From the NCBI RefSeq assembly GCF_036429475.1, contig NZ_CP144125.1, positions 62,001 through 126,000 of the forward strand: a DNA stretch of 64,000 nt, written 5' to 3'. Origin of the DNA: Halalkalicoccus sp. CGA53 (lineage in GTDB: Archaea; Halobacteriota; Halobacteria; Halobacteriales; Halalkalicoccaceae). Made by a program: the position numbers and the translations under genes. Each line of letters starts with the position of its first letter. Position 1 is the first letter of the stretch. Shown piece after piece: positions 25,038 through 38,583 of the stretch. The notes under the pieces are model-generated. The model did no database searches and had not been told where the DNA came from. It saw only the letters and a program-made list of their open reading frames with translations.

Positions 25038-26201
25038 TCACCGCTCGCCGAACCAGGTCCGTCCGACCGCCTCGACCGTCTCCGGGTCGATCGACTGGTC
25101 GACGGGGAGGAGTCGCGTCCGTGCGGCGAGCGCCCGTTCGGTCTCGTAGGCATCTCCCTCCAGGACCGCCGGGACGAGCCTCGGCCAGGCCTCGCGGAGG
25201 CGACCGGCGGCCCTCCCGTTCTCGACGATCACCGGAAGGGCAGAGGGACAACACCCCCGTGTAGAGGCGTCGAAGAGGGGAGAGACGCCCTCGACGTCCG
25301 CCAGGTGCCAGCGCCACGCCGTCGCGTTCGCTCGCCGGGCGCCGACACACCACTCGGGATCGACGTGATCGAGCAGCATCCGGGAGAGCTTCGACATCGC
25401 CACGTCGGTCGACGCGTACGCCGGTGCCCGCTCCGTTTCCCGCGGGTGTGACCGTACCGGGGAGAGCGTCCGTGAGAGCGACGAGACGACGGGGGCCGCG
25501 GCGGTCGCGCGAAACACCGTCGAGAGGCTATAGCGAACGTCGTCGCTCGTGAACCGATGCTCGACCGACGCGTTTCGGAGCGCCTCGCTCCGTATCCCCG
25601 CTCCGGGTACGAGCGCAGCACCGTTCGGCACCCGGAAGAACGGGGAGAACGCGAGCAGGCCGACGTCGCCGGTGAGCCCGACAGCGTCTCCGTCGTGCGT
25701 GCTCAGCGCCGCTCGAGTGGCGTCCTCGATCAGGCCCGCGCCGTGGTCGACACAGCGGTCGGCGAACGAGTCGATCGACTCATCGGGCTGGAGGCGGCCG
25801 AACGGGTGGGCGATGACGGCCGCGAGCACGGTCTCGTCGAACCACTCGGCGACCTCCTCGGTGGGACGGAGGTCGTCGGTGAGCGGGTAGAACCGGGGGA
25901 CGAGTCCGGCTACCCGTACCGCCTCCGCGAGGGTCCCCGGCGTGAGCGAGGGGAGCAACACCGTCTCCCCCTCGTAGATCGATTCGAGCGCGCGGAGTGC
26001 GTCGGTGAGCGCTCGCGCCTCGTGGCCGTAGAGCGCGATCCGGCCGACGCCGTGTGCAGCGTAGAACGGGAACAGCCCGGTACGGGTCGTCCGTTCCGGT
26101 CGATCGACCTCGGGTTCGATCGACCCGAGTTCCCTGTTCGGGGCCGGCTCGATCGTCTCGGCTGCCGAGCCGACGTGGTCGGGGACCCCCCGGCTGCTCA
26201 T
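25038..26201 (-). CDS. DegT/DnrJ/EryC1-like protein without the PLP lysine
   Basis: 387 aa, aspartate-aminotransferase fold as judged from blocks ESIYEGETVLLPSLTPGT, LAAVIAHPFGRL and GLIEDATRAALST (conserved Asp160). Where the family has a PLP-binding Lys just before its glycine loop, this protein has FSPFFRVPNGAAL (185-196); the only Lys of the whole protein is K271. Transaminase activity is therefore unlikely, and a sugar-binding or scaffold role is possible. The start overlaps the stop of the upstream phosphatase-like gene (ATGA), so the genes are co-translated. Confidence 0.75.
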   Translation of the reverse strand: MSSRGVPDHVGSAAETIEPAPNRELGSIEPEVDRPERTTRTGLFPFYAAHGVGRIALYGHEARALTDALRALESIYEGETVLLPSLTPGTLAEAVRVAGLVPRFYPLTDDLRPTEEVAEWFDETVLAAVIAHPFGRLQPDESIDSFADRCVDHGAGLIEDATRAALSTHDGDAVGLTGDVGLLAFSPFFRVPNGAALVPGAGIRSEALRNASVEHRFTSDDVRYSLSTVFRATAAAPVVSSLSRTLSPVRSHPRETERAPAYASTDVAMSKLSRMLLDHVDPEWCVGARRANATAWRWHLADVEGVSPLFDASTRGCCPSALPVIVENGRAAGRLREAWPRLVPAVLEGDAYETERALAARTRLLPVDQSIDPETVEAVGRTWFGER

Positions 26202-27640
26202 CGTCGCCCCCCGTCGGTCTCAATCGCCGCGTCGGTCGCCGGCTGTGGGTAGCTCATCCGCCCGGTCCGGGGCGCTACCGGGAGCGGGGCTCCGTCCATC
26301 CGGTCGGAGAGCGGGAGCGACAGCGCGGCGAGGACGGTCGGAGCGACGTCGAAGAGGTGAGCGTCGGAGAGCGTCCGCGGGTCGATGCCGGGGCCGGCCA
26401 CGGCGAGGTAGCCCGTCGGGGTCCGACACGGCGTCCCTCCCCGCGAGTCGAACACCTCGCCGCCGAGGGCCGCCGAGAGCGAGACGCCCTCGTTCGGGAT
26501 CGCGACGACGTCGGGCGCCTCGTCGACGTGCGGGCCCCAGAGGTACGCCTCCCGTCTGACGACGTCCGTGAACGCCGGGTCGCCGTTCGGCGCCGTCAGG
26601 TCCCTGAGCGTCTCGATCAGTTCGCTCCGCAGCGTCTCGTACCGGTCTGCTCCGACGACGCCGTCGGGCTCGCGGCCGCGACGGTTCACCCGGAGACCGT
26701 ACTCGACCGGCGAGCGGAGATAGGCCGTCGAGCCCGCGAGGTCGACCGAACGCGATCCCCTCCCGAGCAGCGCCCGCGGCAGGACGCGGCGGGTCCCACC
26801 GATGACCCGGTCGATGGGACCGGAGCCGATCGGTTCGGCGACACACTCCGCCTCGGTCGGCGTCGCCGGCTTCCCGCGGCACGGACCGCTCTCGAGGTAG
26901 CCCCGCCGGTGGAGGAACTCGTTGACCCGGAGCTCGTGACCACAGCTCTGGGCCAGACCGTACGCGCTCGCGACGACGACGAGGTCCGCATCGACCCGTT
27001 CGAGGAGGTCGCCGAGTCCCGCGTCGATCGCCCGGTAGAGTTGTTCGCGGTCCGCGTCGCCCCTGTTCACCCGTCCAGGTGACTCGAACCGGACGATCCC
27101 GACGTCGGGCGCAGCCACGTCGAGCAGGTGAGAGAACGCGGCCAGGCGCTGGTCGACCAGCGCCCGCTCGGCACCCTCGACACCGGGTTCGGGTGAGAGT
27201 CGGTACTCCCCGATCGCCTCGCGAACCGCCGAGAGGTCTTCGTCGACCGACGACGCGGGAGGACAGGCCGCGGGGACCGCCGCGACCGACTCCCCGGACG
27301 TCGCGAACGGGACGTTCACCACGGTACTCGAGAGGCCGTGGTAAGCGAGGATCTCCCAGAGCGCCGGCTCCCGGGGCGCGTTCACGTCCGTGTGGACCCA
27401 GTCGTAGCCCTCGTAGACGAACGGTCCGAAGACGCCGTGTTTCCCGGGGTTCGTGCCGGTGTGAAGCGAGGACCACGCGCTCGTCCCGTGGAGGGGGACC
27501 TGTGATCTGAGCGGACCGCTCGCGCCCGTCTCGGCGAGCGACGAGAGCGTGGGGAGGAGGCCACGGTCGAGCATCGGGTCGAGGAGCTGTGGGCTCGCGC
27601 CGTCTATCTCGACGATCAGCGCCCGGAGCGACGCGTTCAC
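26198..27640 (-). CDS. alkaline-phosphatase-superfamily (type I phosphodiesterase-like) protein, degenerate metal site
   Basis: 480 aa from GTG 27640. The fold is recognisable: IVEIDGASPQLL (Asp13), a nucleophile loop LHGTSAWSSLHTG near T53/S54, and a C-terminal GYLAVAGPGID. The later metal-site motifs are altered: the D-x3-H pair reads SPGRVN (187-192), the DHG motif reads SAYG (225-228), and the His before the last loop is absent. Hydrolysis by the usual two-metal mechanism is thus unlikely. It overlaps the asparagine-synthase-like gene upstream (GTGA) and the DegT-like gene downstream. Confidence 0.75.
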   Translation of the reverse strand: MNASLRALIVEIDGASPQLLDPMLDRGLLPTLSSLAETGASGPLRSQVPLHGTSAWSSLHTGTNPGKHGVFGPFVYEGYDWVHTDVNAPREPALWEILAYHGLSSTVVNVPFATSGESVAAVPAACPPASSVDEDLSAVREAIGEYRLSPEPGVEGAERALVDQRLAAFSHLLDVAAPDVGIVRFESPGRVNRGDADREQLYRAIDAGLGDLLERVDADLVVVASAYGLAQSCGHELRVNEFLHRRGYLESGPCRGKPATPTEAECVAEPIGSGPIDRVIGGTRRVLPRALLGRGSRSVDLAGSTAYLRSPVEYGLRVNRRGREPDGVVGADRYETLRSELIETLRDLTAPNGDPAFTDVVRREAYLWGPHVDEAPDVVAIPNEGVSLSAALGGEVFDSRGGTPCRTPTGYLAVAGPGIDPRTLSDAHLFDVAPTVLAALSLPLSDRMDGAPLPVAPRTGRMSYPQPATDAAIETDGGRR

Positions 27641-29511
27641 GGCTGCCACCTCGCGTTCGGCCGATCGCGTGGCCGATCGCCTCCAGCAGCAGTGACGGAC
27701 TCCACGACGGGCATCGAGAGCAGCGTGAGCGCCGTCGTGAGTTCCGCCGTCCGATCCCTCCCCGCGTCGTGCTCGCGCTCCCAACGCCGGAGCGTCTCCG
27801 TATCGAGGCCAGGTACCTCCCGGGCGAGGTGGCAACGACCGTCGATCGCGCGCCGAACGATACCGACCTCCCGGAGGGGTGTTGGGTCGGTCCACGGGTC
27901 GTCGCTCATCCGCGCCCGGGGTGGCGTCTCGTCGCCGAGATGGTTCCGCCAGACGTGCCGCGCGGTCCGTGTGAGATACTCGACGGGGAACGGTCGGGTG
28001 AGCGGTTCGCCGCTCTCGGCGTCGGGGATCCCCGCGAGCGTCGGCGAGACGCGCTCGACGGCGCGGGCGACCAGGTCGCCTCGCAGCCGGTACTGTACCG
28101 GAACGGTCAGCGCGAGGTCGACCAGCCGGGCGTCGAGGAACGGCGTTCGGTAGGGGAGGGTGCGGGTCAGGCTCAGGTGTGGGACGACCCCCATCCCGTT
28201 CGCGAGCGGCCACCACTCCCCGCAGTAGCGCAGGTCGGCGAGCGAGGCGTACGCCACACCGTGGTGGTCGATTCGTCCGTCCACGCACCCGACGTTCGAG
28301 GCGAGGATCCGCTCCGCCTCGCGGCCGCCGACCGGTTCGTCTGCCGCCCCCTCCGCGAGCCACCCGACGTACGCCTGGACCGAGTCGAGAGGGCGTTCGA
28401 CCGGGAGCGCGAGGGTGCCGACCCGATCGTGCTCGACCGTTCGTGCCGGAATCCCTCCCCGACCGAACAGCGCGTCGGCGAAGGCGCCCGAGAGCAGCAC
28501 GTCGACCTCGGAGATCACGTGTCGTTCGAGCCCCGCGAGCGGGCGGTGTGTCGCCGGGCCGTCGAACCCCGTCAGCTCGCCGCCCGCGTCGAACGCGTGT
28601 CCCTCGCTCCCGTCACGCCGGAGGAATCGGAACTCGTGGCCCCCTCGCAGGGCGACCCGCTCGGCGGTCCGGGCCTCGCGGCTCATCCAGTCCGCGACGT
28701 GAAACGCGGTCGCGTCGGCGTCGAGCGCGGCGAGCACGAGCCGCGAGGCGCTCCCGCCCGAGAGCAACACGCCGTACTCCCGACCGCGTTCGATCCGCTC
28801 GAGGAGCACCGTTCGCAGGGTCTCGGCGAGCTCGTCGATCACCGACTCGACGGGCCGTTCGCGAGGGCGGTACCGCGGCTCCCAGTACCGCCGAGAGTCG
28901 GTGCTCCCAGTGCCGAGATCCACCGTCGTCACCGTCGCCGGACCGAGCGATTCGACCCCGTTCAGTGGCGTCGTGGTCCCGAACGTCCTCCCGAACGCGA
29001 GGTACTCCCGGGTGAGGTCGGGGTCGAACGCGGTCTCGACTCCGGGGTGGGTGGGGAGCTCCTGGACGTCGGTGGAGAAGACGACCGAACCGTCGTCGGC
29101 CCGAGCGTGATAGACGGGGAGCGTCGCGAGCCGGTCGGTGATCAGGTGGACCCGGCCAGTGTCCCGCTCGTAGACGAGCGCGAACCCGTTGGCGTTCAGC
29201 CCGTCGGCGAACGCGGGCCCGTGGTCGGCGTAGAGCCGCGCACAGTAGTGTGCGCTGTCGACGGATCTGGGGCGAGGGACGTGACCGAGATCGCCCCCGA
29301 CGGCGTCGTCGTCGAAGCCGAACGCCTCGCCGACGAACCAGACCAGTGCCTCGCCGACGTGGTACGGACCCGCCGTCCCGATCCCCGGGTGGGAGGCCGC
29401 GTAGACCGCCACCTCCCGGTCGCTGTAGCGGGTGACCGCGCGGTCGCTCCGCGCGAGGAACTCGGTCGGGGTGCCGTCGTCGCCGCCGAGCACGCAGCAG
29501 ATACCGACCAC
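27637..29511 (-). CDS. asparagine synthase-like protein
   Basis: 624 aa from GTG 29511. The N-terminal ~160 residues match the class II glutaminase-like domain (VYERDTGRVHLITDRLATLPVYH), but no Cys follows the start Met (M-V-G-I-C-C), so the nucleophile is probably lost. The synthetase domain has SGGSAS at 251-256 instead of SGGxDS, LLSGAFADALF instead of the usual GxGADExF, and TLPYRTPFLDARLVDLAL. The protein contains no lysine. GTG at 29520 in the same frame is an alternative start. It is the first gene of a three-gene overlapping operon; substrate and product unknown. Confidence 0.75.
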   Translation of the reverse strand: MVGICCVLGGDDGTPTEFLARSDRAVTRYSDREVAVYAASHPGIGTAGPYHVGEALVWFVGEAFGFDDDAVGGDLGHVPRPRSVDSAHYCARLYADHGPAFADGLNANGFALVYERDTGRVHLITDRLATLPVYHARADDGSVVFSTDVQELPTHPGVETAFDPDLTREYLAFGRTFGTTTPLNGVESLGPATVTTVDLGTGSTDSRRYWEPRYRPRERPVESVIDELAETLRTVLLERIERGREYGVLLSGGSASRLVLAALDADATAFHVADWMSREARTAERVALRGGHEFRFLRRDGSEGHAFDAGGELTGFDGPATHRPLAGLERHVISEVDVLLSGAFADALFGRGGIPARTVEHDRVGTLALPVERPLDSVQAYVGWLAEGAADEPVGGREAERILASNVGCVDGRIDHHGVAYASLADLRYCGEWWPLANGMGVVPHLSLTRTLPYRTPFLDARLVDLALTVPVQYRLRGDLVARAVERVSPTLAGIPDAESGEPLTRPFPVEYLTRTARHVWRNHLGDETPPRARMSDDPWTDPTPLREVGIVRRAIDGRCHLAREVPGLDTETLRRWEREHDAGRDRTAELTTALTLLSMPVVESVTAAGGDRPRDRPNARWQP

Positions 29512-29829
29512 GTCACCCACCCCCGGAGGAGGGTGTGGGCGTCTCGGGCTGGCCGTCTCCGGCCGTGGACCGGCGACCCTCACGCCGACACTCGACTGAG
29601 AGCATACCCTCACCACGATCTATCGGATGTTTACTACTAGTCCGGTAACGCCGGCTACACACCCCTCTAAACCCGGTCGAGTAGGGGTTAGACGGAGGAT
29701 AACGCTCGTCGGGAGTCGTGCCCCCCAAGCGACGAGTTCCCCTGGAGCGTTATGTGGGACGTAACGCCGCTCACGGGACGTGCGCCTTTCGAAAGGCTTT
29801 TTCTCCGGCTGATCGTCGCTCGGAGTAGG
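29512..29829. other. 318 bp gap upstream of tRNA-Phe with nested inverted repeats
   Basis: No supported gene. The nested inverted repeats ataacgctc/gagcgttat (29699-29707 and 29745-29753) and ctcgtcg/cgacgag (29705-29711 and 29730-29736) share three bases and can form alternative hairpins. They lie between the divergent start of the asparagine-synthase-like gene and tRNA-Phe. Possible role: operator or transcript folding; no terminator-like T run was seen. Confidence 0.4.
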
Positions 29830-29903
29830 GCCGCCTTAGCTCAGCCTGGGAGAGCACTCGACTGAAGATCGAGCTGTCCCCCGTTCAAATCGGGGAGGCG
29901 GCA
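29830..29903 (+). tRNA. tRNA-Phe (GAA)
   Basis: Plus-strand cloverleaf. The acceptor stem pairs GCCGCCT with AGGCGGC with A discriminator. The D arm is GCTCAGCCTGGGAGAGC. The anticodon stem-loop is CTCGA-CTGAAGA-TCGAG, giving GAA. The T arm is CCCCG-TTCAAAT-CGGGG. No intron is seen. Confidence 0.97.
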
Positions 29904-30024
29904 TTCGAATTCTACTCGGACCGCGTTCGGCTGAATACTTGACGGTCCCCTACCAACCGTGTGTGTGGGTCGCACGGTCGGACGCAACGTTTATTTTCTT
30001 ACCCGTTGTCTCTTGGTTAAGAGT

Positions 30025-30720
30025 ATGGTCGAGGAGTGGCGGTCCACCGAACCTGACTACGCGGAGACGGCGACGCTCGTCCGCGAGCTCGATGCGATGA
30101 AGCGTCACGGCTCCGCGCTCCTCGTCGTCGGCTCGGTCCCGGACCGGATCAGAACGCACGCGTGCGAGGCGTTCCTCGGGACCGACGTCGCCCGACGCCG
30201 GCTGTTCGTCCTCACCGAGGGACGGGAGCCGCCGCTGTCCTGTCTCCCGCAGACACACAGAGGAGGCGATCACACGCGCGTCGTCGAGTACCACCGGCCC
30301 GCCCGTAGCGCGACCGCGGCGACCTCCACACCGCTGTTGCCCGTTCCGACGCGGACGGTCTCCTGCGGGCGGCTCTCCGAACTCGGCATCGAGATCTCGG
30401 GGGCGATCGAGGCGCTCGACCGGGCCGCCTGCGGGCTCTCGCCCGCGGAGCTCCGGCTCTGCTTCGACTCGCTCGTCCCGGTCCTCGCCTCCTCGGAGGA
30501 GGTGACCGTCTTCCGGTTCCTCCACCTGCTGACCCACCGGGTCCGATCGGTCGACGGCATGGCCCACCTCCATCTTCCGATCGACCCCGACACACCCGTC
30601 GTCGGCCGGCTCACGCCGCTGTTCGACGCCGTGGTCGAACTCGCGGAGACCGAGACGGGGCCAGCCCAGCGCTGGACGCTGCGCGACAGGAACCTGGAGA
30701 CCGGCTGGCTCTCGCTCTGA
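30025..30720 (+). CDS. DUF7504 family haloarchaeal protein
   Basis: 231 aa soluble protein of unknown function. The last ~100 residues have the family-type pattern LRLCFDSLVPVLASSEEVTVFRFLHLLTHRVR followed by GMAHLHLPID, a P-loop-less RecA-like core in which no Walker A is seen. ATG at 30025 was preferred over an earlier in-frame ATG at 29959 because the extra residues look non-coding. It converges with the unknown Tat protein; the stops abut without spacing. Confidence 0.7.
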   Translation: MVEEWRSTEPDYAETATLVRELDAMKRHGSALLVVGSVPDRIRTHACEAFLGTDVARRRLFVLTEGREPPLSCLPQTHRGGDHTRVVEYHRPARSATAATSTPLLPVPTRTVSCGRLSELGIEISGAIEALDRAACGLSPAELRLCFDSLVPVLASSEEVTVFRFLHLLTHRVRSVDGMAHLHLPIDPDTPVVGRLTPLFDAVVELAETETGPAQRWTLRDRNLETGWLSL

Positions 30721-31719
30721 TCAGAGGTCGGGAACGTCCCAGTGGACCTCGTCGGCTCTATGCCACTCGTCGTACGCCGAGAGCCGCTCGCCCGCGAGAC
30801 CGGTGAGCCTGACGTCGTGATAGAGCGTCGAGTGGGTGTAATCGAGGAAGGTGACCGCGATTCGGAGACCGTCCTCGAGAAACGCCGTCGCGAGGCCGTT
30901 GTAGACGTGTTTGTGCCGCCTGTCGCGAACCCAGAACGCGGCTACGGGAACGGCCTGTCTGACCGCAGGGACCGCGTGGAACGCCTCGATCGCCCGGTAG
31001 GAGAGCTCCCAGCAGAACAGCCCCGTGTGTCCCCGTTCGAGCAGCGAGTCGAGGTCGGTCGTCACCTCGAACGGCGCTCTGAGGTCGACCCTGCCCAGAA
31101 GCACGTTGTCCTGGATCGACCCGCCGACGTACCGCGGGACGTCGTAGCTCCCGTACTCCCGGAACCCCTCCGCGAGGCCGTTCGCGAGCGCCTCGGGGTT
31201 CGAGGGTTCGGCGGCAGCGAACTCGACTACCGTCTCCGGCGAGACGGGAGCCGCGACCGAGCCACGCATCGCCCCCGTGATCGCCGGACGGTGCTCCGCG
31301 TCGCGGACCCGGTCGAAGAACCCCTCCGGTCCGTGGAACTCGTAGTCGTGTGCTCCTCGCTCGATCGCCGCGGCATCCTCGACGAGCGTGGTGACCGCCC
31401 AAGCGAGGCCGTGGTCGTCGTCCGCTCGGCGAACGGCGTCGGTCGGAGAGGGGGTCGAGGACCACTCGCCACCGTGCGGTCGGAGCCACGCCCGCTCGTC
31501 TTCGGATTCGACGAGGAGTTCGTAGCTCCCGCGTTCGCCGTCGACGGTCACCGGGTCGAGTTCGAGGCGTTCGTCGAGCAGGCCGTCGAGTTCCTGGTCG
31601 AGTAGGTTCGTCCCGCCGTCGACGTGTCCGTAGCCGAGCAGGACGTTGTCGACCGCGCGGAACGATCCGAGCGCGAGGAGACCGCCGCCGATCGCCGAGA
31701 GCGCCCGCCGTCGGTTCAT
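30721..31719 (-). CDS. unrecognised Tat-exported protein beside archaeosortase A
   Basis: 332 aa. The N-terminus (MNRRRALSAIGGGLLALGSF) looks like a twin-arginine signal or anchor. The rest is soluble, with a His/Trp-rich C-terminal half (WELSYRAIEAFHAVP, DRRHKHVYNG, YHDVRLTG). No family motif was recognised. It starts 33 bp after the artA stop on the same strand and probably shares its transcript, so a role in sorting or processing of PGF-CTERM proteins is suggested by context only. Confidence 0.65.
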   Translation of the reverse strand: MNRRRALSAIGGGLLALGSFRAVDNVLLGYGHVDGGTNLLDQELDGLLDERLELDPVTVDGERGSYELLVESEDERAWLRPHGGEWSSTPSPTDAVRRADDDHGLAWAVTTLVEDAAAIERGAHDYEFHGPEGFFDRVRDAEHRPAITGAMRGSVAAPVSPETVVEFAAAEPSNPEALANGLAEGFREYGSYDVPRYVGGSIQDNVLLGRVDLRAPFEVTTDLDSLLERGHTGLFCWELSYRAIEAFHAVPAVRQAVPVAAFWVRDRRHKHVYNGLATAFLEDGLRIAVTFLDYTHSTLYHDVRLTGLAGERLSAYDEWHRADEVHWDVPDL

Positions 31720-31752: not shown

Positions 31753-32676
31753 TCAGTCGTCGCTCGGCCGAGTGATCGGTGCTGGCGAGTCGAGGAGGTC
31801 GTACTCCGTACCGGTGAGCAGGTAGAGCAGGTCCTCGACGATCACTGCCAGCTCTGGCAACAGTTTGAGGACGACCCAGAACAGCGCGAGCAGCGCGACG
31901 ACGGCGAGCCCCTGCGAGAGGATTCGATCCGCGACGAAAAAGGAGACGCGGACGGGATCGGAGAGTCCGAAGACGGTCATCACGGGCCCGACGAGCGCCT
32001 CGTGGGCGAAGAGCTGTTCGCCCGAGGAGTGAGCGATGAAGACGTTGCGGACGACGTTCATGACCCAGATCGCACCGATGGCGAGGCCGAGCGCGGCGAG
32101 GCGCCGGCGCAGGGGTGCACGGACGGCGGCGGTCAGCCCGCCGAAGATCGCCATGCTCCCGATGCCCGTACACGCGAAGACGATCCGGGTCGAGTACGCC
32201 CCACCGGAGGCGGTTTCGGTGCCCGGGAAGACGAAGAGGCTCCGCAGGCCCCGGTCGTCGTCGACGAACTCGTACTCGGTGCCGAGCGCGGCGAGGCCCC
32301 ACTCGGTCTGTGCGGCGACGACCTCGATCAGCCCGTCGTGGAGGGGGGTGACCGTCTCGAACGGGATGTAGATGACGAGCGCGACGGTCACCGCCCGCGA
32401 GAGCACGAGCAGCGAGACGCGACCCGATGAGAGGTGGTAGGCAACGGCGAGACAGGCCGGGACGCCGATTGCCACGAGGACGGTCTGGATCACGCTCCGG
32501 TGTTCGAACGCGAAGAAGGGGATCATCAGCAGCCAGAACCCGGCGAAGAGCACCCACGCGCCGGCCATCGCCCGCCGGCCGAGTGAGGGATCCCGCCACT
32601 CGGCGGCGCTCGCGACGAGGAACGCCGCGACGACCGCCCAGAGAAGTGGGTCGGTCACCGCGGAGAGCTCGGTCAT
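31753..32676 (-). CDS. artA: archaeosortase A
   Basis: 307 aa membrane protein with about eight hydrophobic segments. The exosortase/archaeosortase catalytic residues are visible as C169 in ACTGIGSMAIF, R210 in NVVRNVF and R251 in VADRILSQ. ArtA cleaves PGF-CTERM tails and promotes lipid attachment of the S-layer glycoprotein and other surface proteins. Its probable main substrate is encoded directly upstream (32829-35477), with a terminator-like hairpin between them, and three PGF-CTERM proteins are in this window. Confidence 0.94.
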   Translation of the reverse strand: MTELSAVTDPLLWAVVAAFLVASAAEWRDPSLGRRAMAGAWVLFAGFWLLMIPFFAFEHRSVIQTVLVAIGVPACLAVAYHLSSGRVSLLVLSRAVTVALVIYIPFETVTPLHDGLIEVVAAQTEWGLAALGTEYEFVDDDRGLRSLFVFPGTETASGGAYSTRIVFACTGIGSMAIFGGLTAAVRAPLRRRLAALGLAIGAIWVMNVVRNVFIAHSSGEQLFAHEALVGPVMTVFGLSDPVRVSFFVADRILSQGLAVVALLALFWVVLKLLPELAVIVEDLLYLLTGTEYDLLDSPAPITRPSDD

Positions 32677-32828: not shown

Positions 32829-35477
32829 TCAGACGCGGTTTCGCGCGGCGAGGCCGGCGGCGGCCAGCAGCGCGATCAGCGCGACGATGACACCGAAGCC
32901 AGGCTGGTCCTCGCTCGGGGTCGAGACGTCGTCGTCGCCGTCGAAGTCGTCGTCGGCACCGGGGACGTCGTCGGCGTCGTCGTCAGACACCGCCGGGTCG
33001 TCGTCACCGTACTCGTCCTCGGTCTCCTCGGAGAGCGTGACCGTCACGGACTTCTCCGCGGAGTCGAGGGTGACCATCTGCGAGTGGTCCTCGTAGCCGT
33101 CGGCGCTCACGTCGAGCGTGTGGTCGCCGCGGTTGAGCTCCATGACGACGGAGCCGTCGGAGCCGGTGGCCTCGGACTTGTCGCCGACGGAGACGGTCGC
33201 GCCGGAGATGGCGTTGCCGTCCTCGTCCTCGACGTTCACGGTGAGTTCACAGACACCCGCGGGGCCGTCGGCGTACTTCGCGTCGACGATCATGCCGGTG
33301 TAGTCGTAGGCTGCGATGTTCTCACCGCCGCTTCGGAGCATGATGTCGAACTCGGTGCCGAGCTCTTTCTCGCTCAGGTCGACGGTCGCGTTCCACGTGT
33401 AGTCGTCGTCAACGGTGACGTCCTGCGTGTGGATGAACGAGGTTCCAGCGGTCGAGCGGAGTCGGAGTTCGATCTCCGAGCCCGGCGCGAGCGTGGTCTC
33501 GCCGCTCATCGAGACGTCCTCGCTGGCGGTGACATTCAGGTTCGCGTCCATCGTGTCGTCGAGGGTCGCCTGTCGGTCGACGATCTCGAACTGGGACTCG
33601 AGTTCGACGTCGTCGTCGAGGTAGTGCTCGAGCGCACCGTCGTCCTCGAACTCGACGAGCACGTCGTAGACTTCACCGGACTCCGCGCCACTGATGTCGA
33701 TCACCAGGTAGTGCGTGTCGTTCTCGAAGTCGTTGACGATCTCGATGTTATCGACGGAGATGTTCGCGGGGTTCTGGTTCGGGCCGACGGAACTCTCGTT
33801 CTCCTCGACCGTCACGCTCAGAACGCCTGCATCGATCAGTTCCTCGAGGTCGTCCTCACCGTCGAAGACGCCCTCTAAGCTGCTCGCCTCGAAGGAGGCG
33901 ATGACCTGGTCGTTCTCGGCGACGACGTCAGCGGCGGTCGCCCACTCGCGGACGTCCGATGCGTCGTCGATGTCCTCACCGCTCGGGGCGATGTGGTTCT
34001 TCAGCTCGTCACCGGACTCGTACTCGTAGATCACGAGGGCCGCGAGGTCCTGTTCCTCGCCGCCTTCGATCGCCGTCACGGACATGTCGTAGTCGGCGGC
34101 GTCAAGCGGTCGCTCGAGATGCTCGTCGGGGTGGTTGAGCGTGGCGGAGACGACTTCATCGTCGTCGTCCTCGGTCCAGTAGACGTCGTTCTCGTCGACG
34201 TCTTCCTGGCCGGCGAGGTACGTGTTCATGTAGACCGTGACGTTGCCGGACTCGCTACCGTCGTGGACGTGGACGGTCGCGTTGTATCCGAGGTCGTCAG
34301 TGCCGACCTGGACCCAGGCGTCCTCGCTGCCTTCGAGGTCGACCTCGAACTCAGCGATACCGCCCTGGTAAGCAGTGTAGGAGGACTCGGTGAACTCAGC
34401 CTGCGCGTCGGGAGCCTCGCCGACTTCGATCGTGGCGTTGGCCTCCGCGGTCGTGTCGATCACGGACGCGTCGAAGGTGTAGTTACCCGCGTCGACGCCG
34501 GTGAAGTTGGCGACGAGCGTCGAGTCACCGTCGATCTGGTAGACACCGTCGGTGGCGGAGGCGTTGTCCTCCGCACCGAAGAGGTCTTCGAGCTCAGCGG
34601 AGTCGAAGTCGTCAGAGGTGATGTTGGCCGTGTAGCCAGCGCGGTTCGAGTCGATCTCGAGTTCCGCCTCCTCACCCTCTTCGACGGTGGAGACGTTCCA
34701 GTTGGCGTCGAGGGTCTGCACCGCGACCTCGAACGTCAGGTCAGTGTCGTCTTCGCCGTCGACTCGGAGGATGTACTCGCCGTCGAGGTCATCCGTGTCG
34801 ATCTGGACGAACTGCTGGCCCTGGTCGTCCACGTGGACGTTGAGCTGCGTGACGAACGAGCTGTCGTCCTCGTCGCCCTGTCGGAGTTCGACGTCGTCGT
34901 CGTCGACGTCGGCCCAGACGCTCTGGCCCTGGAAGACCGTGCTGACGTCTTCGATGTTCGAGCCTTCTCGCTCGGCGTCGCCGACCTCATCGACGAGAGT
35001 AATGTCGAGCGCGTCGCTCTCATACTCGAGGTTACCTTCGTCGTCGTAGATGGCGACGACGTGGACGTAGTCACCGTTGTCGAGTACCGAGAGATCGATA
35101 CCTTCGAAGACGAACGAGTCGTCCTCACCAGCATCGATTCCATCGAAATCGGCTTGAGCCTCTGCTTCGATGTCATCCACGGTGGCCTCGTCCAAGTCAA
35201 CGTCACCGTCGTAGAGCTCCCAGTAGATCTCGTAATCGTCCGGGATGTCTTCAACGTCATCGTTGTTCGTTACTGTGGCCTCCACGTCAAGGTCGATATT
35301 CGTACCGACCACCGCACCGTCATCGGGTGCGGTGATCTCAACGTCGACGTCGCCAGCCTCCGGCTGGGCAGCCGCTCCGCCCACAAACGCTGCGGACATG
35401 GCGACGACGGAGAGGACCATAATCGCGGCAAGGAACAGCGCCTGTCCCTTCTCGCGAATGTCTGTGTTTCCTGTCAT
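32829..35477 (-). CDS. csg: S-layer glycoprotein (BGTF surface domain) with PGF-CTERM anchor
   Basis: 882 aa, the main cell-wall protein. The N-terminus (MTGNTDIREKGQALFLAAIM) is the haloarchaeal surface-glycoprotein signal, and cleavage is expected near GGAAA. About 13 N-x-S/T sites are spread over the mature chain, fitting N-glycosylation. Residues ~755-815 (CELTVNVEDEDGNAISGATV onward) resemble a carboxypeptidase-regulatory-like Ig domain. After an acidic linker it ends with [20 protein letters not shown] plus Arg, the PGF-CTERM signal cut by archaeosortase A. Predicted extracellular and lipid-anchored. A TATA at 35601 suggests a leader of about 100 nt. Confidence 0.93.
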   Translation of the reverse strand: MTGNTDIREKGQALFLAAIMVLSVVAMSAAFVGGAAAQPEAGDVDVEITAPDDGAVVGTNIDLDVEATVTNNDDVEDIPDDYEIYWELYDGDVDLDEATVDDIEAEAQADFDGIDAGEDDSFVFEGIDLSVLDNGDYVHVVAIYDDEGNLEYESDALDITLVDEVGDAEREGSNIEDVSTVFQGQSVWADVDDDDVELRQGDEDDSSFVTQLNVHVDDQGQQFVQIDTDDLDGEYILRVDGEDDTDLTFEVAVQTLDANWNVSTVEEGEEAELEIDSNRAGYTANITSDDFDSAELEDLFGAEDNASATDGVYQIDGDSTLVANFTGVDAGNYTFDASVIDTTAEANATIEVGEAPDAQAEFTESSYTAYQGGIAEFEVDLEGSEDAWVQVGTDDLGYNATVHVHDGSESGNVTVYMNTYLAGQEDVDENDVYWTEDDDDEVVSATLNHPDEHLERPLDAADYDMSVTAIEGGEEQDLAALVIYEYESGDELKNHIAPSGEDIDDASDVREWATAADVVAENDQVIASFEASSLEGVFDGEDDLEELIDAGVLSVTVEENESSVGPNQNPANISVDNIEIVNDFENDTHYLVIDISGAESGEVYDVLVEFEDDGALEHYLDDDVELESQFEIVDRQATLDDTMDANLNVTASEDVSMSGETTLAPGSEIELRLRSTAGTSFIHTQDVTVDDDYTWNATVDLSEKELGTEFDIMLRSGGENIAAYDYTGMIVDAKYADGPAGVCELTVNVEDEDGNAISGATVSVGDKSEATGSDGSVVMELNRGDHTLDVSADGYEDHSQMVTLDSAEKSVTVTLSEETEDEYGDDDPAVSDDDADDVPGADDDFDGDDDVSTPSEDQPGFGVIVALIALLAAAGLAARNRV

Positions 35478-35600
35478 GATTTGTTGTGGTTGTTGTACCT
35501 GTCTGACCGACCGACCCCGTCGCGCGTCCATGAAACCCGGACGACCGACGACGGTACTGGGACAGCCATGGGTAGGGGCAGTTCCCCAAAACAGCAAACG

Positions 35601-36153: not shown

Positions 36154-36542
36154 TCCTCGACACCTCGTTTCTCCTCGACGTGCGACACCGGGACGCGGAG
36201 GCGATGGCCTGCGCACAGGAGATCGAGATGGGACCGGAGCAGGTTCGTGTCTCGGCGATCACGCTCGCAGAGCTCCAAGCCGGCGTGCCGCGATCTCACG
36301 AACCGCTCGTCGAGCACACGGCGATCGTCGAGGTGACTGCTTCGAAAGAAGTCGTCCCAGTTACACGGCCGATCGCGCTTCGCGGCGGCCGGCTGTACGG
36401 CGAACTGCAGAACGACGGACAGAGCGTCGGACTGGGCGACTGCCTGATCGCCGCGACCGCCCTCGAGTTCGAGGAGCCGGTCGTCACGCGGAACACGGAA
36501 CACTTCGAGCGGTTCGACGGGCTGCTGGTGCTCGAGTACTGA
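36150..36542 (+). pseudogene. VapC-type PIN-domain toxin without a proper start codon
   Basis: The open frame begins ILDTSFLLDV at 36153, the usual PIN-domain start, but the codon before it is GTA and no ATG, GTG or TTG lies between it and an upstream stop. The next possible start, GTG at 36180, would drop the first catalytic Asp. Later acidic residues are present (TLAELQAG; GLGDCLIAATA; VTRNTEHF). A 3 bp deletion in an original taatgatc-type overlap could explain it. The family cleaves RNA, often initiator tRNA. Confidence 0.7.
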
Positions 36543-36636: not shown

Positions 36637-38583
36637 CTACCGTCGTGCGTGGACGGCCGCCCCGACGGCGGCCGCGAGCGCGAGCAGCGCGACGAGGACG
36701 CCGAATCCGGGCTGGTCCTCGCCGGTGATCGCCTGCACCGGCGCGCTCTCGCCGTTCGAACTCCAGCCCTCGCCGCCGGTATCGACGACGCCGGTCGTCC
36801 CGTCGTCGTCGCTTCCGTCGGCTCCCTCGCTCGGGGGCGTCGTGTCGCCCTCGTTCTCGGCGGGCGAGACGACCGTCGCCTCGCCGATCAGCTCGTCCAC
36901 GGGGTCGCTCCGGATCTGGACCTCGGTGTCGAGCGCGACGCCGGAGAGGTCGACCTCGACCGCCCAGCTGCCGTCGGAAGCGATCTCGGTGCTCAGGACG
37001 TCCGCGAACGGCGTGCCGGCGACCGATCGGAGGTGGAGTTTCAGTTCGGTGCCGGGCGCGAGCGTCGACTCTCCGGCGAGCGTCCCCCGGTCGCCCGCCT
37101 CGGCCTCGGCGACCTCGATCCCCTCGCCCGCGAGCGTCACGGCGGGTTCGACGATCTCGACGGTGGCACTCGCCCCTTCGGCATCGTCGGCGGCGGGGAA
37201 CGAGTCGTCGACCTCGATCCCGATCTCGAGTCGGTCGCCCGCGTCGATCGCCTCGTGGGACGTGTCGACGACGACGTAATGAGTCCCGTCGTCGCCAACG
37301 ATCACGTCCGTCGGGGTGAGTTCGATCGGGTCGCTGTTCTGTCCGGTCGGTACGACGGTCACGGTGTGCTCCACCCCGTCTAGCTCGTCGGCTGCGAACG
37401 CGCCGGAGAGGCTGGGTGCGGAGACGGCGAGCACCGCGCGGTCGCCCGCGGCGACCTCGTCGCGCTCCGTGATAGCGGCCTCGACCGCCTCGCTGTCGGC
37501 GAGCTGGCCCGTCGCGGGTGCGACGTGCGCGCTCGCGTCTCCGAGGTCGAACGGTTCGATCACGAGCACCGAGAGGTCCTGGGTCGCCTGGTCCAGGTCG
37601 GCGCCGACCTCCAGTTCGTACACCGCGGGTTCGAGCGTCGCATCGAGTGAGTCCTCGTCCTCGACGATCACCTCGTCGCGGTCGTCGGCGGCCGAGTAGG
37701 CGGCCCCGTCGCCGCTCCCCGCGAGCAGGGTGTTCACCTCGACGGTGACGCTGCCGTCGTTCGAGCCGTCGACGACGGTGAGGTTCGCCTCGTAACCGAC
37801 GTCCTCGCCACCGATCCGGAGTTCGGCCTCGTCGGTGTCCTCCAGTTCGACGGTGGACGCGGTCACGTCCCCGCGGTCGGCCTCGGTCGATCGTTCCGCG
37901 AAGCCGGCCTCGGGGTCGATCTCCGGCACCGAGAGCGTCACGGTGTCGCTCACATCGGTGTCGGTGACGGTCACGGTCAGCTCGTACTCGCCCGCCTCGA
38001 GCGTCGAGAGCGAGAGGGTGTGCTCGCCGGCGGCGTCCTCGACGAGGAGCGTCCCGTCGTCGACTTCCGTGCCGGCGTCGAACAGCGCGGCGAGCTCCGC
38101 GCCGCTCAGCCCTTCGGAGCTTACCTCGACGTCGTAGCTCGTCCGCATCGAGTCGATCCAGAGCGTCGTCTGAGTCGCGTCGTCGTACCAGTCGATCGCG
38201 TACTCGGTGCTCGCAGTGAACCACTGGGCGGTGACGACGAACGAGCGGTCCTCGCCGCTCTCGTCGCGCAGCGTGTACTCGCCGTGTCGGTCGTCGGTCT
38301 CGACGGTTATCCGACCCTCGTCGTCGGCTCTGAGCTCCGTCTCGAAGCCGTCTGCCGACCAGAGCTGGAGCTCCTCTCCGGGGTCGAAGCCGGTCACCTC
38401 GACCTCCTGGCCGGCCCACACGAGCTGGCCGTCGAGGTCGTCCTGTGCGTACGTCTCGTCTGCCGAGGACCCGTCGGCCGCGGCGACGCCACCGAGGGCG
38501 GTGGCGAGCGCGAGGGCCGAACAGACGACGATCAGGGTGAGGAGCGTCGTCGGATCGGGTCGGCGGTGTCTCTGTCGTCTCAT
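36637..38583 (-). CDS. second PGF-CTERM surface glycoprotein (S-layer paralogue)
   Basis: 648 aa. The signal segment is [23 protein letters not shown]; the C-terminus ([20 protein letters not shown] plus Arg) is a PGF-CTERM signal for archaeosortase A. Several blocks match the S-layer glycoprotein, for example [21 protein letters not shown] against TTLAPGSEIELRLRSTAGTSF. Unlike the S-layer gene it has only one N-x-S/T site (ANLTVV). It is separated from the S-layer gene by the broken VapBC pair. Probably a lipid-anchored, mostly unglycosylated surface protein. Confidence 0.85.

Follow-up and report, generated by a model that had tools for sequence, protein, structure and literature searches.

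Three co-encoded haloarchaeal relatives of asparagine synthase, phosphodiesterase and DegT enzymes share losses of catalytic residues and remain under purifying selection

The window analysed here is a stretch of 64,000 nucleotides (G000:C2:62001-126000) from a haloarchaeal genome of 4.04 Mb in two contigs. It carries three overlapping genes whose products belong to enzyme families of unrelated fold and have lost catalytic residues. Because the trio stays together, shows the same losses in all three sampled genomes of its genus and is under purifying selection, the best reading is that the three proteins probably bind ligands, act as a scaffold or regulate, perhaps paired with intact paralogues. 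We give this reading, drawn from sequence comparisons, a probability of about 0.5. The original prediction of a non-catalytic binding or scaffold role hence stands in part.

Gene organization and family assignments

Gene 1, encoding an Asn-synthase-like protein (27637..29511, minus strand), matched PF00733 with an E-value of 8e-11 and 42.6 bits against a gathering score of 21; its product combines a degenerate Ntn-GATase domain with a PP-loop that reads SGGSAS. Gene 2 (26198..27640, minus strand) encodes a phosphodiesterase-like protein of the alkaline phosphatase superfamily and matched PF01663 (E 5.5e-26; 92.4 bits, gathering score 23), and gene 3, which is DegT-like (25038..26201, minus strand), matched PF01041 (E 1.5e-7; 31.5 bits, gathering score 19.8). 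All three family assignments of the original prediction were thus borne out by the profile check, and the description of the genes as one overlapping unit proved correct in strand and position. The end of gene 1 (27637) and the GTG start of gene 2 (27640) overlap in a GTGA, and the end of gene 2 (26198) and the ATG start of gene 3 (26201) overlap in an ATGA. The open frame of gene 1 reaches position 29616, beyond the assumed start at 29511; the latter (MVGICC) fits the M-V-G start of homologues and is a putative start. AlphaFold models of the products of genes 2 and 3, based on alignments of three rows only, gave a pLDDT of 31 and were discarded.

Loss of active-site residues

Alignment with homologues from elsewhere in the order revealed losses shared by none of the other rows (0/47, 0/77 and 0/60 for genes 1, 2 and 3, respectively, a few genes having been entered twice in these counts from overlapping loci). 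Residues are numbered as in the intact paralogues at locus L033. In gene 1, the Asp of the PP-loop SGGxDS has given way to Ala in each of the genus's three genomes, where the loop reads SGGSAS or TGGSAS; Asp is found at this position in all 47 other rows. In gene 3, the Lys that forms the Schiff base with PLP is likewise replaced in all three genomes, and each of the 60 other rows retains it. Both losses had been read correctly from the window. For gene 2, the anticipated loss of the metal motifs was confirmed, but the list was incomplete, since the nucleophile Thr and a further His are also gone. The substitutions are T53>G, D197>G, H201>R/Q, D244>A, H245>Y and H453>R, at positions that are intact in 77/77 other rows. 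The nucleophile and five of the six metal ligands have therefore been replaced (6/7 catalytic or metal residues), with only the first Asp, D14, retained. The absence of a Cys after the initiator Met of gene 1 had also been taken as a sign of a broken site. The observation is true of gene 1, but we rejected it as a sign of decay, since every intact homologue whose N terminus could be read (MVGLxG and similar) also lacks Cys at position 2; this is a family-wide feature that catalytic homologues share.

Damage is uneven across the three proteins. Otherwise invariant positions were changed in all three genomes at 5 of 57 sites in gene 1, 43 of 127 in gene 2 and 11 of 42 in gene 3. The changes in gene 2 fell preferentially on catalytic residues (6/7, versus 37/120 of the other invariant positions; Fisher p = 0.006).

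In phylogenetic trees, each broken clade was monophyletic (100/100), with a long stem and short tips. A long stem with many changes, followed by constraint, might reflect neofunctionalised enzymes that perform a new catalytic chemistry through other residues, and the new clade-invariant residues, among them the HGTS of gene 2 and the GHEAR of gene 3, would fit such an origin. We consider it unlikely, since the metal ligands and the PLP Lys gave way to non-catalytic residues (G, A, Y, R, P) and no new recognised motif was noticed among the three sequences at hand. With changes at so few of its invariant positions, the gene 1 protein may retain ATP binding or some activity, and it keeps the remainder of the PP-loop (S/T-GG-S-R) and D355. 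It could accordingly be imagined still to make an amide or ligate an amine with a weakened PP-loop, the two other proteins serving as passive partners. This we judge improbable, as the replaced Asp is universal among the other rows and the family lacks the Cys for glutaminase activity.

Distribution and selection

A survey of one 293-genome sample of the order found the broken trio only in the three genomes of this genus, two of which are incomplete MAGs; the contig of one sibling begins inside gene 1. All three genomes show the same gene order and the same losses, as the original prediction had suggested a comparison of neighbours might reveal. The two siblings have 66-78% protein identity to the trio of the window and carry the same substitutions, which excludes both a strain accident and a sequencing error.

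Selection on the broken genes resembles that on their intact relatives. Between species, dN/dS ranged from 0.28 to 0.46 for the broken genes and from 0.25 to 0.47 for intact copies of the Asn-synthase-like, phosphodiesterase and DegT genes. The pN/pS values of the trio genes were 0.39-0.51, as compared to approximately 1.3 (minimum 1.10) in a neutral simulation of 100 runs per gene in which the substitution spectrum was taken from fourfold sites. Because the catalytic residues are already missing from both members of every pair compared, the constraint postdates inactivation. The trio is therefore under purifying selection after losses that are common to the orthologues. All reading frames of the trio are open in the three species. 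We rejected the absence of stop codons as weak evidence of selection, because in GC-rich DNA only about 2-3 stops per gene would be expected under neutrality.

These data bear on whether the trio is a cassette decaying toward loss. It has already lost a GNAT gene that intact relatives possess (see below), and the stems of the broken clades are long. The open frames, a pN/pS far below neutral and selection close to that on intact copies make decay highly improbable. Sequencing or assembly error in the window, for which we found no supporting evidence, is already refuted by the two other genomes with the same substitutions.

Genomic setting and the intact cassette

A four-gene cassette is widespread in haloarchaea. 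Its genes encode, in order, an Asn-synthase-like amide ligase that lacks the glutaminase Cys, a PF01663 phosphodiesterase, a FemAB-like GNAT and a DegT aminotransferase. The intact cassette was present in 7/7 sampled genomes of the sister genus (L072-L078), and in 6/6 loci examined upstream it adjoins a tRNA-Phe gene, a DUF7504 gene and archaeosortase A. The same setting was observed in the window. A tRNA-Phe (GAA) gene (29830..29903, plus strand; ARAGORN) anchors the locus and lies upstream of the trio both in the window and in L056, as it lies upstream of the intact cassette in the six sister-genus loci. The neighbouring DUF7504 protein (29959..30720, plus strand; PF24336, E 1.5e-55) occupies the same place in those six loci. 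Archaeosortase A (ArtA; 31753..32676, minus strand; TIGR04125, E 3e-91) is a neighbour conserved in both genera. Further conserved neighbours are a 332-amino-acid protein downstream of ArtA (30721..31719, minus strand), recognised by synteny with the sister genus, and a surface protein (32829..35597, minus strand; PF18204, E 7.7e-8, and PF25162) that bears a C-terminal PGF-CTERM signal of the archaeosortase substrate type.

The trio thus has the same three families in the same order and at the same locus as the sister-genus cassette. Unlike the intact set, which keeps its catalytic residues and has a GNAT gene separating those for the phosphodiesterase and DegT proteins, the trio has lost both. 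Given the shared tRNA-Phe/DUF7504/ArtA setting, the trio occupies the position of a catalytic cassette but without its GNAT.

An intact cassette also lies approximately 80 kb from the trio in the same genome (G000:C2:171555-177297, corresponding to L033:6556-12298). The original prediction had named intact homologues of the same gene order, pointing to decay in this strain alone, as evidence against itself. Such cassettes do exist, one of them in the window genome itself; the broken set, however, occurs in more than a single strain. No tRNA was found in 15 kb around the intact cassette of the window genome. Neither the trees nor AU tests showed which of the two intact sets, the one in the same genus or the one in the sister genus, is closer to the trio. 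Synteny favours conversion of the resident cassette in place and gain of a second copy. tRNA genes are also known as insertion sites. The association with archaeosortase was seen only in this taxonomic family; in other haloarchaeal families the cassettes sit elsewhere, and partial or rearranged versions occur.

Possible function

Clues to the chemistry of the intact set come from its neighbours and its distant relatives. Flippase genes of the Wzx/MurJ type adjoin homologous cassettes at L067 and L079, and a nucleotidyltransferase gene lies near a homologous cassette at L087. The intact synthetase scored 72.1 bits against TIGR03108 (cut-off 816.9) and the intact GNAT 47.3 bits against TIGR03019 (cut-off 260.35), so that they are distant kin only. 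WbpS and VimA, relatives of these two families, act with the DegT enzyme WbpE to make the linking sugar through which proteins are attached to the cell surface in Porphyromonas, and the association of such genes with sortase-like systems has been pointed out (PMC7468200). Like the haloarchaeal cassette, the Wbp/Vim and XrtA/PEP-CTERM genes comprise an AsnB-like amidotransferase, a FemAB-like transferase and a DegT protein, with a sortase-like association. The cassette differs in scoring far below the family cut-offs and in having the phosphodiesterase as an extra component, and no homologue of WbpA/B/D or VimE was noticed beside it. The trio, in turn, has neither GNAT nor catalytic residues. 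Because of the kinship to WbpS, VimA and WbpE and the flippase and nucleotidyltransferase neighbours, a role of the intact set in a surface glycan or linking sugar is a reasoned guess. The surface or glycan context proposed for the trio in the original prediction is likewise plausible, given the flippase and sugar-nucleotidyltransferase neighbours of homologous cassettes and the archaeosortase neighbourhood. Literature searches, which did not amount to a full review, yielded no paper on the cassette; PMC5198076 was followed as a lead and rejected, as it concerns an AsnC regulator.

The preferred reading, that of a non-catalytic role, suggests the following course of events. The trio would descend as a unit from the catalytic four-gene haloarchaeal cassette. 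The cassette resident next to tRNA-Phe and ArtA would have lost its GNAT gene in the ancestor of the genus, and the other three genes would have lost their catalytic residues. A second, fully catalytic cassette is kept elsewhere by the genus. Rather than catalysing reactions, the three proteins most likely serve as partners that bind ligands, provide a scaffold or regulate, and they might form heteromeric assemblies with the intact paralogues. By analogy with the Wbp/Vim pathway, we infer that the pathway concerned may supply a surface glycan, or a sugar that links proteins, with an amino-sugar or amidated-sugar unit.

Single pseudoenzymes are common. Like those that serve as scaffolds or regulators, the trio proteins are kin of active enzymes that have lost catalytic residues and remain under purifying selection. 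What sets them apart is the joint inactivity of three unrelated enzymes from a single cassette, which are maintained as a coupled set, and, as far as literature searches short of a full review go, we know of no described case in which a whole cassette of unrelated enzymes was jointly inactivated. A bolder proposal, which we offer tentatively and regard as doubtful, is that an entire multi-enzyme module became, as a unit, a paralogous pseudo-pathway devoid of catalysis, which either forms assemblies with the active module or controls it, in the service of an archaeosortase-tied, surface-linking sugar. With three unrelated folds co-translated, inactivated together and kept by selection, and with catalytic counterparts both elsewhere in its genome and at the sister locus, the trio would offer a natural experiment for asking what a pathway's enzymes contribute apart from catalysis. 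It further draws attention to a haloarchaeal cassette, so far uncharacterised, that is likely to take part in surface glycan chemistry.

Other features of the locus

Several further observations were made around the trio. The 332-amino-acid protein beside archaeosortase A gave no match in a search of Pfam and NCBIfam; it has approximately 50% identity to the sister-genus copy and is a candidate ArtA partner. A PIN-domain (VapC-like) gene (36180-36542) lies between the surface-protein genes at 32829-35597 and 36637-38583. Both surface proteins contain DUF7827, and the Pfam PGF-CTERM match is in the first only. In the sister genus, a 700-amino-acid protein is encoded between the DUF7504 gene and tRNA-Phe (L074:1323-3425). 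The window locus lacks it, but a 53% identical copy is located elsewhere in the window genome (G000:C2:2724007-2726055). This protein has no Pfam match, and its C-terminal part appears CHAT-like by eye only. Finally, a block at 29617-29652 (TATCGGATGTTTACTACTAGTCCGGTAACGC), in the gap between the trio and tRNA-Phe, is strongly conserved in two species and is a candidate promoter of the trio.
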